This document shows, piece by piece, positions 19,674-25,293 of a DNA stretch of 64,000 bases; within the stretch, counting starts at the first letter, position 1, and each line of letters begins with the position of its first letter. The stretch covers positions 310,001 through 374,000 of the forward strand of contig NZ_JAGSPD010000001.1 of the NCBI RefSeq assembly GCF_019203985.1. The letters are read 5' to 3'. Both the position numbers and the translations under genes were made by a program. This DNA comes from Winogradskyella luteola (GTDB lineage: Bacteria > Bacteroidota > Bacteroidia > Flavobacteriales > Flavobacteriaceae). The notes under the pieces were generated by a model, which worked only from the letters and a program-made list of their open reading frames with translations, made no database searches and had not been told where the DNA came from.

Positions 19674-20867
19674 ATGAATCCATCAGCTAGCGGCTGGATA
19701 AAAAAATTTTGTTCTCAGATTTCCAGAAAAGAACTACCCTATCACAATTTTGATCAGCTTTATAAGGGCTTAAAACAGAATGGATTTATTTATGGAGTTA
19801 ATGTGGGCATTACAAATGCGGTTGATACATTGCACAAATACTCTGAGGATGAGTTGGCCAAAATCAACCTCATCACTACATTATATCACACCTATACGTT
19901 TTACAAACCAGATTTTAACAGTAAAGAATTTATTGCTACGTTACTGAACTATTATAAAGAGTTAGAAGTCTCTGATCTATCACTTTGGGATAAGCTCGTA
20001 ATAGGCAAAAGTGAAAGCTCCATGTTAGAGCGTTTAATACACGATAGAATTCAGTTAGACGACAATCTATTAACACGAAATTTTAATAAATCCATAACCA
20101 ATTCACTTTTGTTCGTAGATGTTTTCACTTTTGAAGCGCATCTAAAAAGTGAAGTCGATGTAAAAGCATATGCTGCTAATCTCGAAAGTTTAATAATTGG
20201 TACACTATACCAATCTCTTAATTCAAAAAGTAAGGTTACGGATTACGACAAAAAGGTCATTGACCTTATTGAAACTTCTACATCTTACATTGATGATGAA
20301 GTATTAGATGCTGAAGATTTAATTTATGACATTACATACAACATCAATAAAAATGAAAAAAAATACCTTATCGATTTAATGTGCTTATCGATTTGGGACG
20401 ATGAAATTCTAGAAAAATCCGAGTTTAGGTTTCTAACAAGTTTAGCCAAACGCTTAGATATGCCAAATTCTGAAATACATGAGTCTATTTTAGATGTAAA
20501 CGATTTTCACAAAAAACATAAGAAAGAAATATTGTTGTTTCAACAATCCAACCCTATCAGTAATTTCTATGAAAACTCATCTCAACTCGTCAACAAATTA
20601 ATAAGAAGAAACAGTAAACGTTTAGTAAAAGAGGTCAATCAGAGTAAAGAGCTTTTATCTCTTATTTCCAAATCCACACATTCAGATTTATCCAAAGAAG
20701 AACAAAAGCTAATGCAATCCCAATTGCTAGACATTTTAAAAACCATACCAAGCTTGGCTATTTTTATGCTTCCAGGCGGGGCAATTTTGTTACCGATTTT
20801 TGCAAAGCTTATTCCTAATATGCTGCCATCTGCCTTTGACGACAATAGGGTTGAAGACAAAAGCTGA
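19674..20867 (+). CDS. LETM1-related protein
   Basis: A 397-residue protein that begins MNPSASGWIKKF and ends in a LETM1-like segment (DILKTIPSLAIFMLPGGA, then PIFAKLIPNMLPSAFDD). In mitochondria LETM1 domains occur in inner-membrane cation-exchange proteins. Flavobacterial homologues are annotated as LETM1-related and biofilm-associated, but their mechanism is unknown. The first 320 residues are helical and acidic, with no membrane segment; the one hydrophobic stretch is in the C-terminal domain. Monocistronic, convergent with the LytTR operon. Confidence 0.8.
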   Translation: MNPSASGWIKKFCSQISRKELPYHNFDQLYKGLKQNGFIYGVNVGITNAVDTLHKYSEDELAKINLITTLYHTYTFYKPDFNSKEFIATLLNYYKELEVSDLSLWDKLVIGKSESSMLERLIHDRIQLDDNLLTRNFNKSITNSLLFVDVFTFEAHLKSEVDVKAYAANLESLIIGTLYQSLNSKSKVTDYDKKVIDLIETSTSYIDDEVLDAEDLIYDITYNINKNEKKYLIDLMCLSIWDDEILEKSEFRFLTSLAKRLDMPNSEIHESILDVNDFHKKHKKEILLFQQSNPISNFYENSSQLVNKLIRRNSKRLVKEVNQSKELLSLISKSTHSDLSKEEQKLMQSQLLDILKTIPSLAIFMLPGGAILLPIFAKLIPNMLPSAFDDNRVEDKS

Positions 20868-20883
20868 ATTCAATATTTTGAAT

Positions 20884-21639
20884 TTATTCTAACCAGTTCT
20901 TAAAATCTTTTACGCGTTCTCTGGCCACAATGACTTCTTGTTCTTTGAATCGGTTTAATTTAATCTGAAGTCTAGAATTAGTATAGCTTATAATATCTTT
21001 TATAGCATTTATGTTGACATAAAATTTTCTACTGATCCTAAAGAATACATAAGGTTCAAGCTCGTCTTCCAGTTGATCCAATGTTATATCCAAAAGGTAA
21101 TTTCTGCCTTCGGTGGTGTAAGCATACGTGCCCTTGTTTTCACTGTAGATACATTCGATGTCCTCAATATTAATAAGTTTTAAATGCTGACCGACTTTAA
21201 CAGAAAAACGCTTTTTATATTCACGCTCAATGGGATTGACCAATAACTTCTTAATATCATTAAAATCTAGAGTAACCGCTTGTTTTTTTGGTGTTCTACT
21301 TTTAAATTTTTTTACTGCAGTGCTTAAATCGTCTTCATCAATAGGTTTCAACAAATAATCTATACTGTTTAGCTTAAATGCCTGTAACGCATATTCATCA
21401 TAAGCCGTTGTAAAAATAACTGCTGAATTAATATCTATAGCTTCAAAAATTTCAAAAGACAAACCATCACTTAACTGAATATCTAAAAAAATAAGATCTG
21501 GATGTTCATTACTTTGAAACCATTCTATGGATTCTTCCACGGAATGCAACATCGTATGTGCTTCAACATCTAAGGCTTTAAGCATTCGCTGCAAACGTCT
21601 TGCTGATGGTTTTTCGTCTTCTATTATAATTACGTTCAT
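20884..21639 (-). CDS. LytTR family response regulator
   Basis: A 251-residue response regulator. The receiver domain has the acidic pair in IIEDEKPSARR, the phosphoacceptor Asp53 in LIFLDIQLSDG, and LLKPIDEDDL with the conserved Lys. The C-terminal LytTR DNA-binding domain (about residues 145-251) includes IEDIECIYSENKGTYAYT and FFRISRKFYVNINAI. It is the last gene of a seven-gene minus-strand operon that contains the cognate LytS-type kinase. Target promoters are unknown; LytTR proteins bind direct repeats. Confidence 0.93.
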   Translation of the reverse strand: MNVIIIEDEKPSARRLQRMLKALDVEAHTMLHSVEESIEWFQSNEHPDLIFLDIQLSDGLSFEIFEAIDINSAVIFTTAYDEYALQAFKLNSIDYLLKPIDEDDLSTAVKKFKSRTPKKQAVTLDFNDIKKLLVNPIEREYKKRFSVKVGQHLKLINIEDIECIYSENKGTYAYTTEGRNYLLDITLDQLEDELEPYVFFRISRKFYVNINAIKDIISYTNSRLQIKLNRFKEQEVIVARERVKDFKNWLE

Positions 21640-21668
21640 TATTTAAATTGAGTATATAATTAATAATT

Positions 21669-21992
21669 CTATTCCCAAAGCTTCTTTTCCGTTGCTTCTA
21701 CTTTTATAAATTCCTTTATTTTTCTATCCTCCCAGCTCTTTTTAAAAAGAAGTCGCCCCTTAAAAACGCTCCATGCATGTATAGCAATAAAAATAGACCA
21801 AGTAGCTATTGTACTAAGATTTAACCATATAATAGCAATCTTATATTCACCTTCCTCAATTACATATAAATTATATAATAAAAGACCCAGAATAATGGTA
21901 TACAATACTAAATGCAAATAAAAAACTTGAAGTTTTCTGACTTTGCTTTTGGCATATATTAGTAGTTGTTTTTGATTGTTGTTTAATTCCAT
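21669..21992 (-). CDS. 2TM domain-containing protein
   Basis: A 107-residue membrane protein with two transmembrane helices (about residues 25-45 and 58-76). The characteristic 2TM-domain end, SWEDRKIKEFIKVE, shows the W-E-x-R-K-(I/V)-x-E-(F/Y) signature shared with the two upstream small genes and with the kinase C-terminus. The start region AKSKVRKLQVFYLHLVLY corresponds to the A-x-(K/R)-(K/R)-V-x-x-(L/E)-x-x-F-Y part of the domain. Part of the LytS/LytTR operon, 29 bases before the response regulator. Function unknown. Confidence 0.85.
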   Translation of the reverse strand: MELNNNQKQLLIYAKSKVRKLQVFYLHLVLYTIILGLLLYNLYVIEEGEYKIAIIWLNLSTIATWSIFIAIHAWSVFKGRLLFKKSWEDRKIKEFIKVEATEKKLWE

Positions 21993-22016
21993 AATACTAT
22001 TAACATATAACTTTAA

Positions 22017-22361
22017 TTATTCCCAATTACGCTCTTCCTTATCCATAAACTCTTGCACTTTACGCTTTTCCCAATCTTTGCCAAAAAAGAAATCTGGTCC
22101 AAATACTCCTATGAAATGAAATGCCAATCCAATGCCCCAAAATATTGCTGTAGCATAAGGGCCAAAGCCTGTAAATCCTTCGCCTGAATTCAATCCGATG
22201 AGTAATATTAAAAAGACATTAACAACTATATACACAGCTAAGTGCCAATAAAATCCAACAAGGGAATCTACCTTTTTCTTTGCTCTTAAGTAGGCTTCTT
22301 CTTTTCTGAAATCTGAAACCTCATCTTTATCCTTATAAGGTTCTATACTATACTTTTCCAT
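22017..22361 (-). CDS. 2TM domain-containing protein
   Basis: A 114-residue protein with two transmembrane helices (around HLAVYIVVNVFLILLIGL and YATAIFWGIGLAFHFIGVFG). The head AYLRAKKKVDSLVGFYWH and tail DWEKRKVQEFMDKEE carry the 2TM signature. It begins seven bases after the preceding 2TM gene of the operon. The role is unknown; paralogy with the kinase C-terminus suggests assembly with it in the membrane. Confidence 0.86.
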   Translation of the reverse strand: MEKYSIEPYKDKDEVSDFRKEEAYLRAKKKVDSLVGFYWHLAVYIVVNVFLILLIGLNSGEGFTGFGPYATAIFWGIGLAFHFIGVFGPDFFFGKDWEKRKVQEFMDKEERNWE

Positions 22362-22368
22362 AATATTA

Positions 22369-22674
22369 TTATTTTGAATCGTTTGACAATTCTTTATTCA
22401 TAAATTCTTCAATTTTACGTTCTTCCCATCCTTGTCCAAATTTAAAGGACAAAAAATGCAATAACAGAAAGATGCCCCAAATCGCCCATACGCTCAAAAC
22501 GTCTATACTTATCAGTTCGTTGGTGAAACTTCCCCAGCTATCTAAATTATTCCAAACTTTAAAAGTTGTTATTACCAAATTTACTAGTAGATATATAATA
22601 ATATGTGTGTAAAAACTCTTCTCTTTTTCAACTTTATTTTTGGCTTTTATATATTTTAAATTCTGATTATCCAT
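22369..22674 (-). CDS. 2TM domain-containing protein
   Basis: A protein of about 101 residues starting at the ATG at 22674 (MDNQNLKYIKAKNKVEKEKS). An ATG at 22710 would add 12 residues and overlap the kinase gene; the later one fits the 2TM start, leaves 13 bases after the kinase stop and has AAAGG upstream. Two helices (YTHIIIYLLVNLVITTF and VWAIWGIFLLLHFLSF) are followed by GWEERKIEEFMNKE, nearly identical to the tail of the kinase. Third stand-alone copy in the operon. Confidence 0.85.
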   Translation of the reverse strand: MDNQNLKYIKAKNKVEKEKSFYTHIIIYLLVNLVITTFKVWNNLDSWGSFTNELISIDVLSVWAIWGIFLLLHFLSFKFGQGWEERKIEEFMNKELSNDSK

Positions 22675-22687
22675 AGCTCTACCTTTA

Positions 22688-24043
22688 TTAATTCCAACGA
22701 TTTCTTTCATCTTCCTTACGCATATACTCTTCTATTTTGCGTTCTTCCCATTTAGCCCCCAAGGCACCATTATCGACATAAACTCTATAGGCCTGAAATA
22801 TTAAGCTTATGCCCCAGCCCAACATTGGGAACCAAAACCATTGAATGGTATGTCTTGAAAATTGATACCATATATAAATTAAAAATGGTATGACTAAACA
22901 ATAGGATATTAAACTGTAATAGAAGCCTTTTAATTCTTCTACACGTTTGCGAGCTCTAACATAATCGTCGTTAAGACGCTCCTCAGATTTTTGTGTTATT
23001 CTCATAATTGATACTTGTTTTGTGAGCATAGGAATTGCCACCGCAAAATCCTTTTCTCTTTGATTGATGTAAACTTTTCGCTCTGAAAGAAGCTTATAGC
23101 GTTGTTTTATGTTTTCTAAACCAACACCACTACTCTTCTTAACAATCTGCTTTGGCTGAAGATTATTCATAATTACTAAATAGTTACCATCTTCATATAT
23201 TTTAATGTGCAATGGCTTATTAGAAGTAACCATATTATGCTTTACAGCATTTTCTAAAAGCAATTGTAATGACAAAGGCACAACTTTACTTTCGGGGTTT
23301 GACGCTTTATCCGGAATTTCAAAAATGATGCTATCTTCGAAACGCATTTTTAAAAGCGACATGTACGTTCTAGCAAAATTCAACTCTTCGTCTACTGTGA
23401 CCAATTCTTTACTTTTCTGTTCTAAAACATAGCGATAGACTTTAGATAACGACGTAGTAAACTTCTGGGCACTATCTGGATTTTCTTCAATTAAACTCGT
23501 TAGCACATTTAAACTGTTGAATAAAAAGTGAGGATCCAACTGATTCTTAAGAGCATCAAACTTTGCACTTGCCGCACCAGCTATTACCTTTTGTTCTTTT
23601 ACCTTATTCTTTTGGTAACGGTTATAGAAATAAACTACATAAAAAACAGAAATTATGCTTAACGTAACCCATAAACCAAAGGCATAATTTTGCCAACTAT
23701 CCCTACTTATAAATACACTAAATGACTGGCCATAAATAACTACAGAAACAAAAACTCTTATAAAAAATATAGCAGCTATAGTTATTATTGTTGCCCCAGA
23801 AATACCATAAGCAATACGCTTTATAACATCATAACTTTCAAATTTTTGCTGTTTTATAAAATTAAAATATATGGTATTTATATAGCTTAAAACAAAAGTG
23901 TAGAGTTGGGTAAATCCAAAATCAATTAAGAAATCATTAAAGCTTTCATATTGAAAATTATTACCGGATACGAGGTTACTTATCACCTGTATAATACATC
24001 CAATAACAAATACAACTATTAAACTCTTAATTGATTTAAACAT
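22688..24043 (-). CDS. LytS-type sensor histidine kinase with C-terminal 2TM domain
   Basis: A 451-residue membrane histidine kinase. Four N-terminal transmembrane helices fill residues 1-145, followed by a His_kinase phosphoacceptor segment NQLDPHFLFNSLNVL, an ATPase N-box region LLLENAVKHN and the G-box-like SSGVGLENIKQRY. An extra C-terminal part (about residues 350-451) is a complete 2TM domain: VRARKRVEELKGFYY, two helices, then KWEERKIEEYMRKE. The fusion to the same domain found as three separate downstream proteins is unusual. It is 14 bases after the TPR gene. The partner is the LytTR regulator at 20884-21639. Confidence 0.92.
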   Translation of the reverse strand: MFKSIKSLIVVFVIGCIIQVISNLVSGNNFQYESFNDFLIDFGFTQLYTFVLSYINTIYFNFIKQQKFESYDVIKRIAYGISGATIITIAAIFFIRVFVSVVIYGQSFSVFISRDSWQNYAFGLWVTLSIISVFYVVYFYNRYQKNKVKEQKVIAGAASAKFDALKNQLDPHFLFNSLNVLTSLIEENPDSAQKFTTSLSKVYRYVLEQKSKELVTVDEELNFARTYMSLLKMRFEDSIIFEIPDKASNPESKVVPLSLQLLLENAVKHNMVTSNKPLHIKIYEDGNYLVIMNNLQPKQIVKKSSGVGLENIKQRYKLLSERKVYINQREKDFAVAIPMLTKQVSIMRITQKSEERLNDDYVRARKRVEELKGFYYSLISYCLVIPFLIYIWYQFSRHTIQWFWFPMLGWGISLIFQAYRVYVDNGALGAKWEERKIEEYMRKEDERNRWN

Positions 24044-24057
24044 GTCTTCTCTTTTAA

Positions 24058-24681
24058 TTACGATTTACATTCTTCCAGAACCTGTTCAGCGCGTTTTTTT
24101 CCCCAATTAGGATGGAACTGACTCTCTGGCTTAAAGGTATCAAAAAGTTTAATCGATGTTTTAATATCTTCGCAATATGGTGCGGTATCTTTGCCAAAAT
24201 ATTTAGCACTACCCATGTTCCAATCTGCTTTACAAAATGCAGCTCTAGGGTTTTTAGGCTCTAATTTTAAGGCTTTGGTATATAAATCTGAAATTTTTGC
24301 AGAATACTTCATGCCATAAGTCATACCATCAAAAGCAACCCAATTGGTTAATACTTGAGCTTGCATAATCAAAAGTTCTGCATTGTCTTCACTTTTGGCC
24401 ATTGCGCTATCCAAATGCTCTTGAGCTTTTTCTAACTGTGCTTTTAAAACCGCTTCATCTTTTTCGTTCCAGCTTTTTAAACTGTTAATCTGTGCTATGT
24501 AATAGTTTGGAAGCCACTCGTCTGTTTCGGCTTTAGCTATACGCTCAAACATATTCTCGGCTTCATCCCATTTGTCTGCTTCCCAAAGTTCAAAAGCTTT
24601 AGCCATTCCTTTTTCAAAATTGGTCTGTGCCTGTATTAATCCTGTAAAAATGAGTAAGGCAATGATGATTATATTTTTCAT
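24058..24681 (-). CDS. Periplasmic TPR-like protein
   Basis: A 207-residue exported protein with the signal peptide MKNIIIIALLIFTGLIQAQ and helical repeats that fit tetratricopeptide units (AFELWEADKWDEAENMFER, then LYTKALKLEPKNPRAAFCKA). Three cysteines lie in the C-terminal half (AFCKAD, PYCEDI, LEECKS). It is the second gene of the LytS/LytTR operon, 12 bases after the DUF2141 gene, so it may sense or scaffold an envelope signal. That role is inference. Confidence 0.82.
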   Translation of the reverse strand: MKNIIIIALLIFTGLIQAQTNFEKGMAKAFELWEADKWDEAENMFERIAKAETDEWLPNYYIAQINSLKSWNEKDEAVLKAQLEKAQEHLDSAMAKSEDNAELLIMQAQVLTNWVAFDGMTYGMKYSAKISDLYTKALKLEPKNPRAAFCKADWNMGSAKYFGKDTAPYCEDIKTSIKLFDTFKPESQFHPNWGKKRAEQVLEECKS

Positions 24682-24693
24682 TTTAAATAGTAT

Positions 24694-25116
24694 TTATAGT
24701 GTTATGGTTATTGATGTGTTCTCTTTCAATTCAAACTTGGCATCTTTCCATTTTGGTGGTCCCAAAAAACCTGCTGCATCATTTGAGCATGCGTAGTCTT
24801 CTTTCGGAATTCCCAAAAAATTGGTATCCATTTTACCATTGTCGTTTTCATCATGAAAAACGGAAACTGCATAAGTTCCTTCCGGAATGTTTTTAAAAGT
24901 TACCACACAGCCATTATCAGCAATCTTACTTTTCGTGCCTGTATAGGATTTGCCTAAAAAATCTGCTTCTGTATTGTAAACCGCAATAAACATTTGTCCA
25001 TCGTTACTATCTGCTTTTTCTACCTTAACCGTCAATTGATAAGACTCTTGAGTCTGTGCTTTACAAGTCATAAAGCTTACAATCAATATAACTGTTATTC
25101 TTATTAGAGTTTCCAT
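24694..25116 (-). CDS. DUF2141 domain-containing exported protein
   Basis: A 140-residue secreted protein with signal peptide (ITVILIVSFMTCKAQ) and a beta-sandwich DUF2141 domain recognisable by GQMFIAVYN, IPEGTYAVSVFHDENDNGKMDTN and LGIPKEDYACSNDA. The D-x-N-x-D-x-G-like loop may bind calcium. It is the first gene of the seven-gene LytS/LytTR operon. DUF2141 function is unknown. Confidence 0.86.
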   Translation of the reverse strand: METLIRITVILIVSFMTCKAQTQESYQLTVKVEKADSNDGQMFIAVYNTEADFLGKSYTGTKSKIADNGCVVTFKNIPEGTYAVSVFHDENDNGKMDTNFLGIPKEDYACSNDAAGFLGPPKWKDAKFELKENTSITITL

Positions 25117-25293
25117 GATTTAATAATTTGATACAAATATCAGTCACAAACTAGGATTATTAAAACCTGAATTACCGAATTGTATTTTTTTAATGACGAA
25201 TTGTAATTTTTAAAAAAAACCGTTCTAAAAAGAGTAACTTAGTGAGCCCTTTTTCTACATATAAAATATCTTAATCATTAAACCCAACCAAAA

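Follow-up and report, generated by a model that had tools for sequence, protein, structure and literature searches.

Results

A kinase operon with four copies of the 2TM domain

We analysed a stretch of 64,000 nucleotides from Winogradskyella luteola (Flavobacteriaceae; contig NZ_JAGSPD010000001.1, positions 310,001 to 374,000), here called the window, and studied an operon on its minus strand which combines a histidine kinase and a LytTR response regulator with four copies of the 2TM domain (PF13239). Open reading frames and a Pfam search place its features at the positions and on the strand given by an earlier sequence-only reading of this DNA, including the DUF2141, TPR-like and LytTR proteins named there. 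Read from position 25116 to 20884, the operon starts with an exported DUF2141 protein of 140 aa (24694..25116; PF09912, E 1.9e-34), followed by an exported TPR-like protein of 207 aa (24058..24681) with a TPR_19 match barely above the cut-off (E 1.3e-5), a histidine kinase of 451 aa (22688..24043; His_kinase PF06580, E 7.8e-26) carrying a C-terminal 2TM domain (residues 363-442, 22718..22957; E 7.8e-25), three stand-alone 2TM proteins, and a response regulator of 251 aa (20884..21639) composed of a receiver (PF00072, E 4.7e-14) and a LytTR DNA-binding domain (PF04397, E 1.4e-22).

The first stand-alone 2TM gene is listed at 22369..22710 (PF13239, E 4.1e-15), the in-frame ATG at 22674, directly past the kinase stop, being the more likely start. 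The second (22017..22361; E 6.6e-25) is the most typical copy and the third (21669..21992; E 1.2e-13) a divergent one. The four units score 51.4, 87.4, 56.0 and 87.2 bits at a curated cut-off of 24.8 bits, and their E-values rule out chance as the source of the matches; the kinase C-terminus and the three small proteins do share one unit, each copy ending in the previously noticed tail W-E-x-R-K-(I/V)-x-E-(F/Y). 2TM is the only Pfam match of the stand-alone proteins apart from one MRAP match under its cut-off. The genome holds five 2TM matches, the four operon units and one elsewhere on a dihydrofolate-reductase-like protein; in L003:1438-2376 (own genome, contig C47) and L170:4980-5846, a protein of this kind, recognised by eye, carries 2TM at its N-terminus, which is quite another use of the domain than that in the operon. 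Just beyond the regulator gene, a convergently encoded protein (19674-20867) has a partial LETM1 RBD match.

The label LytS, given to the kinase by the sequence-only reading, is justified for the PF06580 domain and not for the sensor part, as the 5TM-Lyt domain has no Pfam match in the window kinase at E<=1. The structure model of the kinase (mffc72889de47; mean predicted local distance difference test score (pLDDT) 85, predicted template modelling score only 0.51) shows four long N-terminal helices, the kinase core, a C-terminal hairpin and then a tail helix, so modelled that the catalytic core seems to be held at the membrane from both ends. A fold search with the model found the GanS kinase domain as the closest match of the core.

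Distribution in the Flavobacteriaceae

We surveyed 149 genomes of the family, one per genus, querying with the kinase core without its 2TM domain at E<=1e-50. Exactly one match was present in 116 of the 149 genomes; 115 of these kinases lie in an open frame of 440-547 aa (one, in genome G071, with an internal TAG) and that of genome G128 has 334 aa. At the G071 locus (L121) this single in-frame TAG makes the kinase show as two frames. PF13239 is present in 130 of the 149 genomes, and a by-eye count of the table gives at least two matches in 116, one in 14 and none in 19. The kinase core and at least two 2TM copies thus coincide almost perfectly, the two sets of genomes differing by one swap: G128 has the kinase without 2TM, and G037 has five 2TM matches and a kinase cut by a contig end.

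We inspected 101 operons, 81 of them retrieved via 2TM matches (window included) and 20 more, of which 19 were taken from the kinase search and G037 was picked by its 2TM matches. At least one stand-alone 2TM gene (range 1-7) occurs in 99 of the 101, the exceptions being loci L306 and L304. Among the 81 operons, 22 have one stand-alone copy, 29 two, 20 three, eight four, one six and one seven. Using profiles grown from the window proteins, we found a LytTR regulator downstream in 78/81, a TPR relative upstream in 57/81 and a DUF2141 relative upstream in 22/81. In loci L079 and L318 the stretch from the last 2TM gene to the regulator could hold additional genes. In the best 80 of 419 loci of named genomes, mostly close relatives and partly overlapping the 149-genome survey, one to three stand-alone 2TM genes are present throughout (80/80); the best named relative of the window kinase is 88% identical, and the nearest named relatives are Winogradskyella. 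The operon system is common in Flavobacteriaceae and no local oddity.

A predicted LytTR site and core promoter upstream of the operon

The upstream regions of the 81 operons share the direct repeat ACARTTCRT-N12-ACARTTCGG. Repeat pairs at exactly 21 bp, with at most one mismatch per ACARTTC half, occur in 57 of the 81 loci vs 36 of 1620 random windows, which were drawn from the same loci and may contain true sites; no other spacing between 10 and 39 occurs in more than two of the 81. An exact longer pattern is present in 88 of the 149 genomes, the reversed control pattern once, in a single genome. Broken down by 2TM content, the exact site occurs in 0/19 genomes without 2TM (small genomes of 1.3-2.7 Mb), 1/14 with one match and 87/116 with at least two, counts that ignore kinship; in G115, the lone single-2TM genome with the site, no gene was found downstream of it.

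The site is followed by a fixed core promoter. Counted from the start of the site, a T-rich element is located at offset 39-42. A box with TTTG at its end follows, the TTTG being at offset 67 in 108 of the 129 distinct sites with the exact pattern. Among nearer relatives, the site is found at up to two mismatches in 77 of the 78 loci with enough upstream sequence (exact in 46), and the TTTG box in all 77 loci having it. In the window, the exact pattern ACAATTCGT-N12-ACAATTCGG, its repeats 21 bp apart, occupies 25175..25204 on the minus strand and ends 9 bp before the -33-like TTTT element (25162..25165), with the -7-like element GATATTTG at 25134..25141. Paired 9-bp direct repeats 12 bp apart, the same length and spacing as here, are reported for LytTR autoregulation in the available part of PMC6193735. 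We infer that the LytTR regulator of the operon would bind the predicted repeat.

In part of the operons a further predicted site lies before the 2TM genes. Where the gap between the kinase and the first 2TM gene exceeds 80 bp, a site with up to three mismatches of 17 is found inside it in 24 of 26 operons (23 of 26 at up to two mismatches), 85-126 bp ahead of the 2TM start in 23 of these 24; with a shorter gap it is found in 3 of 55. Such an internal promoter would lift the 2TM proteins and the regulator relative to the kinase.

A candidate regulon of envelope genes

The sharply conserved promoter element points to the envelope genes that are probably under control of the system. For 91 distinct exact sites, we used the longest frame that begins downstream to assign a class: 27 precede DUF2141 genes (some being the operon's own first gene), 23 DUF2807 genes, 13 TonB-dependent receptors (called with a profile grown from one sequence, which may take in any such receptor), 11 TPR genes, five kinases, three DUF4440-like genes, one a 2TM gene and six other genes, with none downstream of two. 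The 91 sites comprise 30 loci of the exact-pattern search, 60 stretches chosen among sites outside the operon and one own-genome site; about 15 further outside-operon sites (by-eye count) were omitted. DUF2141, DUF2807/Toastrack and TonB receptor genes are the envelope genes recurring behind the site.

In the W. luteola genome, a search at up to two mismatches gives 28 matches and the reversed control 23, so that only the four sites with at most one mismatch were retained. One precedes the operon, the others a further DUF2141 gene, a gene for a TonB-dependent receptor and a gene with weak DUF3471 and DUF4440 matches; the TTTG box is at the expected offset in each case. The gene with the weak DUF3471 and DUF4440 matches has two DUF2807 genes after it and a PspC/LiaF-TM/Toastrack gene before it; this cluster of the PspC/LiaF-TM/Toastrack protein, the site-preceded gene and two DUF2807 genes (L201:608-5129) ties the operon system to PSP/Lia-type envelope genes. 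Six other kinase neighbourhoods of this genome (four of 10 kb, two of 3 kb) contain just one match, with three mismatches. The four sites lie on contig C1 near 251786, 267202, 282375 and 335175, all inside 85 kb of a 433-kb contig, and in single-contig genomes 6 of 12 non-operon sites are, by eye, within 30 kb of the kinase; the regulon may therefore be clustered on the chromosome.

Conservation and relationships of the 2TM units

Of 266 homologous 2TM units of the 81 operons, 86 keep the exact tail motif and 213 a looser form of it, and the tryptophan alone is present in 263 (81/81 kinase and 182/185 stand-alone rows). A histidine in the first transmembrane segment (TM1) occurs in at least one stand-alone copy of 80/81 operons and in the kinase copy of 12/81, a histidine in the second (TM2) in 149/185 stand-alone and 65/81 kinase copies. 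In a tree of the 266 rows, which rests on few columns and has only 20 of 263 inner branches well supported, one branch (support 87) sets apart all 81 kinase domains together with 15 stand-alone rows, 13 of which are first genes. The kinase label requires 12 changes on this tree, at least two forced by supported branches, so that the kinase domains are clustered and a single clade is not established. The branch with support 87 suggests older kinase-type and stand-alone-type 2TM units with later duplications on top.

The structure model of stand-alone protein 2 (m872679499e93; mean pLDDT 86) consists of two long helices. A sequence search found no solved relative of the 2TM protein in the PDB, and a fold search with the model gave zero matches at E<=0.001, the best having E 2.5.

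Exceptional operons and relatives outside the family

The two operons without stand-alone 2TM genes are L306 and L304. The kinase of L306 has 544 aa and contains two 2TM domains, and the regulator lies directly downstream of it; the five best matches of its second 2TM domain are first stand-alone genes of other genera, and its mean score is 59.5 bits vs kinase domains and 49.7 bits vs stand-alone ones. At L304 the regulator is accompanied by DUF2141 and by a kinase of 334 aa that lacks 2TM; a site with one mismatch lies upstream, and the genome has no 2TM match. L304 likely lost its 2TM units, but its kinase is also the most divergent among the 116 (38% identity). In L111 the kinase carries two 2TM domains, both of the kinase type, and one stand-alone gene is present as well; in L123 it is a stand-alone gene that contains two 2TM domains.

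Two genomes from another family of the same order have the complete system (L164, L165), with a 189-aa frame without family assignment among their 2TM genes. A phylum-wide sample gave a 2TM match in 25 of 118 genomes. No kinase match was found near four non-operon 2TM genes of the family (L166-L169) or the two dihydrofolate-reductase-like fusions (L003, L170), so that 2TM as such is not tied to the kinase and the link is specific to the operon.

One locus from a different order, L152, has a kinase beside its 2TM gene. Of 60 genomes from this order, 9 gave a 2TM match, a strong one in six cases; in five of these six the 2TM gene adjoins a PF06580-type kinase which itself has no 2TM domain. A LytTR gene follows downstream in four of the five loci and a relative of the TPR gene lies upstream in three (the one tested having no named Pfam family); at the fifth, L300, no LytTR gene was seen in a piece stopping about 390 bp past the kinase, and the 2TM gene, absent from the gene calls, was positioned by its profile match. 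Three of the five genomes share one genus and are not independent cases. Compared with the seven kinases of the W. luteola genome, four of the unfused kinases match the window kinase best (157-175 bits vs at most 93), indicating that 2TM is separate in this order and fused in Flavobacteriaceae. The predicted site is exact in L152, L296 and L299 and has two mismatches in L300 and three in L297.

Discussion

The operon resembles several known systems. LytSR/YpdAB/BtsSR-type systems pair a PF06580 kinase with a receiver-LytTR regulator as found here, LytS having an N-terminal 5TM-Lyt sensor domain; in contrast, the window kinase has no 5TM-Lyt match and there are an extra C-terminal 2TM domain and stand-alone 2TM proteins. 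LiaFSR of Bacillus, as presented in the accessible part of PMC3543457, likewise has a kinase, a regulator and a membrane accessory protein in one locus, amplifies its own locus and is envelope-related. One of the own-genome sites lies within the PspC/LiaF-TM/Toastrack and DUF2807 cluster, a further link. However, kinase and regulator of the window are of the PF06580 and LytTR families, whereas those of LiaFSR belong to other families, and its accessory proteins are 2TM proteins and not LiaF, with the accessory domain also fused to the kinase and multiplied. A LiaF-type accessory protein consists of LiaF-TM and Toastrack-like domains, and the stand-alone proteins of the window have no Pfam match to either. 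With the LytTR Regulatory Systems (LRS) HdrRM and BrsRM the operon shares the LytTR regulator with a co-encoded membrane protein and the two 9-bp direct repeats close upstream of the operon promoter, as far as the excerpts of PMC6193735 describe them. The minimal make-up given in these excerpts is a regulator and its membrane inhibitor; unlike this, the operon adds a kinase and a receiver domain, and its membrane proteins belong to PF13239. The system would work like LiaFSR or LRS, yet it lacks a defining feature of each and is without the LytS sensor domain. What appears new is a predicted LytTR site with a fixed core promoter before the operon, in some operons before the 2TM genes as well, and before a set of envelope genes.

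The statement of the sequence-only reading that no mechanism is described agrees with the parts of the literature on 2TM, PF13239, LytTR, DUF2141 and DUF2807 that were at hand, in which we found none. A literature search found no paper naming the accession PF13239, and 'head GIN domain' in combination with two further terms gave no match. The retrievable passages for DUF2141 and '2TM domain-containing' contain no description of the operon system, those for the latter being off topic. We rejected PMC11237479, retrieved with '2TM domain' and LytTR and with DUF2807 and LytTR, as its visible sections use 2TM generically, and PMC9425974, retrieved with '2TM domain' in Bacteroidetes, as the passage concerned is about DUF4191; PMC5395568 on LytTR gives, in its accessible portion, regulators by number. 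In a coevolution experiment with F. johnsoniae, each of five lines was mutated in the LytTR gene FJOH_RS09515 or the kinase gene RS09520, according to the excerpt of PMC10197871. We doubt that this pair is the same operon because, judged from the locus tags alone, the successive tags leave no space for 2TM genes between them.

Our analyses support a model, to which we give a probability of about 0.5, according to which the operon encodes an autoregulated three-component envelope-response system whose output raises the 2TM partner subunits that set kinase activity. The LytTR regulator would bind the repeat and activate the promoters of the operon and of the envelope genes; the stand-alone 2TM proteins would pair with the kinase 2TM domain in the inner membrane, placing their cytoplasmic helical tails, which bear the WE.RK motif, close to the kinase, and the output-driven supply of 2TM partners would modulate it. 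This modulation would most likely be a damping feedback, in analogy to LiaF (PMC3543457) and to the inhibitors of LRS (PMC6193735) as the available text describes them; activating or signal-receiving roles of 2TM are possible. The stimulus, judged from the targets alone, would be a disturbance of the cell envelope. The membrane assembly tuning signalling, as the sequence-only reading put it, gains indirect support in its physical part from the co-occurrence of 2TM and kinase, the unfused kinase beside 2TM in another order, the double 2TM of L306 and the joint absence in L304, and the tuning part fits the LytTR-type promoter before the 2TM genes of some operons. More tentatively, the kinase module in cis and variable numbers of the same module, supplied in trans through the regulator's output, could act as a stoichiometric rheostat in which mixed 2TM bundles set the on/off balance and paralogue diversity retunes it, coupled to an envelope-defence regulon conserved across Flavobacteriaceae.

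Several observations weigh against this model. L306 is a single case from a genome that is 82% complete, and L304 has kinase and regulator although it is without any 2TM. As the motif comes from the very upstream regions that gave the count of 57 of 81 loci, the independent genome-wide counts weigh more; in these, the exact site is missing from 29 of the 116 genomes with at least two 2TM matches. The assignment of the site to this regulator, and not to another, is drawn from co-occurrence. The window itself is among the 55 of 81 operons with a gap of at most 80 bp, its kinase adjoining the 2TM gene without an internal site, and since most operons are of this kind, a separate induction of 2TM is not general. 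As an internal promoter would lift the regulator too, it does not give the sign of the feedback. In other orders and classes, L152 is the only one of 13 loci (L151-L163) with a kinase beside the 2TM gene.

Small membrane proteins such as LiaI and PspB are proposed to protect or remodel the inner membrane, and the stand-alone 2TM proteins could be output effectors of this kind, the kinase 2TM merely reading the same membrane state. Their own LytTR-type promoters in part of the operons, a copy number varying from 1 to 7, the envelope proteins among the remaining targets and the occurrence of 2TM proteins elsewhere without this kinase would all fit, yet the fusion of 2TM to the kinase, doubled in L306 and L111, the joint lack of kinase-borne and free 2TM in L304 and a lone 2TM adjoining an unfused kinase in another order speak against it, and we regard it as unlikely. 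About equally unlikely is a role as sensory or activating subunits which receive the signal, e.g. via the TM1/TM2 histidines, and use the 2TM domain of the kinase to turn it on. The TM1 histidine, found in a stand-alone copy of nearly every operon and in few kinase copies, the frequent TM2 histidine in both and the diversified paralogues, which could sense different signals, speak for it, whereas both histidines are often replaced and the L304 kinase and regulator exist without 2TM. Finally, the variable copy number and the 15 stand-alone rows among the kinase domains make repeated duplication likely, and the copies might be tolerated by-products of a neutral tandem duplication of a membrane-anchor domain. 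We consider such a lack of any regulatory role highly improbable, since 99 of the 101 operons have one or more free copies, the stand-alone type is largely separate on the tree, and the copies have promoter sites of their own where space allows.

If true, the model of an autoregulated envelope-response system with 2TM partner subunits would assign a probable function to 2TM, DUF2141 and the DUF2807 lipoproteins together, three families that are poorly understood, within a large bacterial family. It would also provide a conserved promoter element usable in reporters and a testable case of a kinase controlled by trans copies of its own domain.

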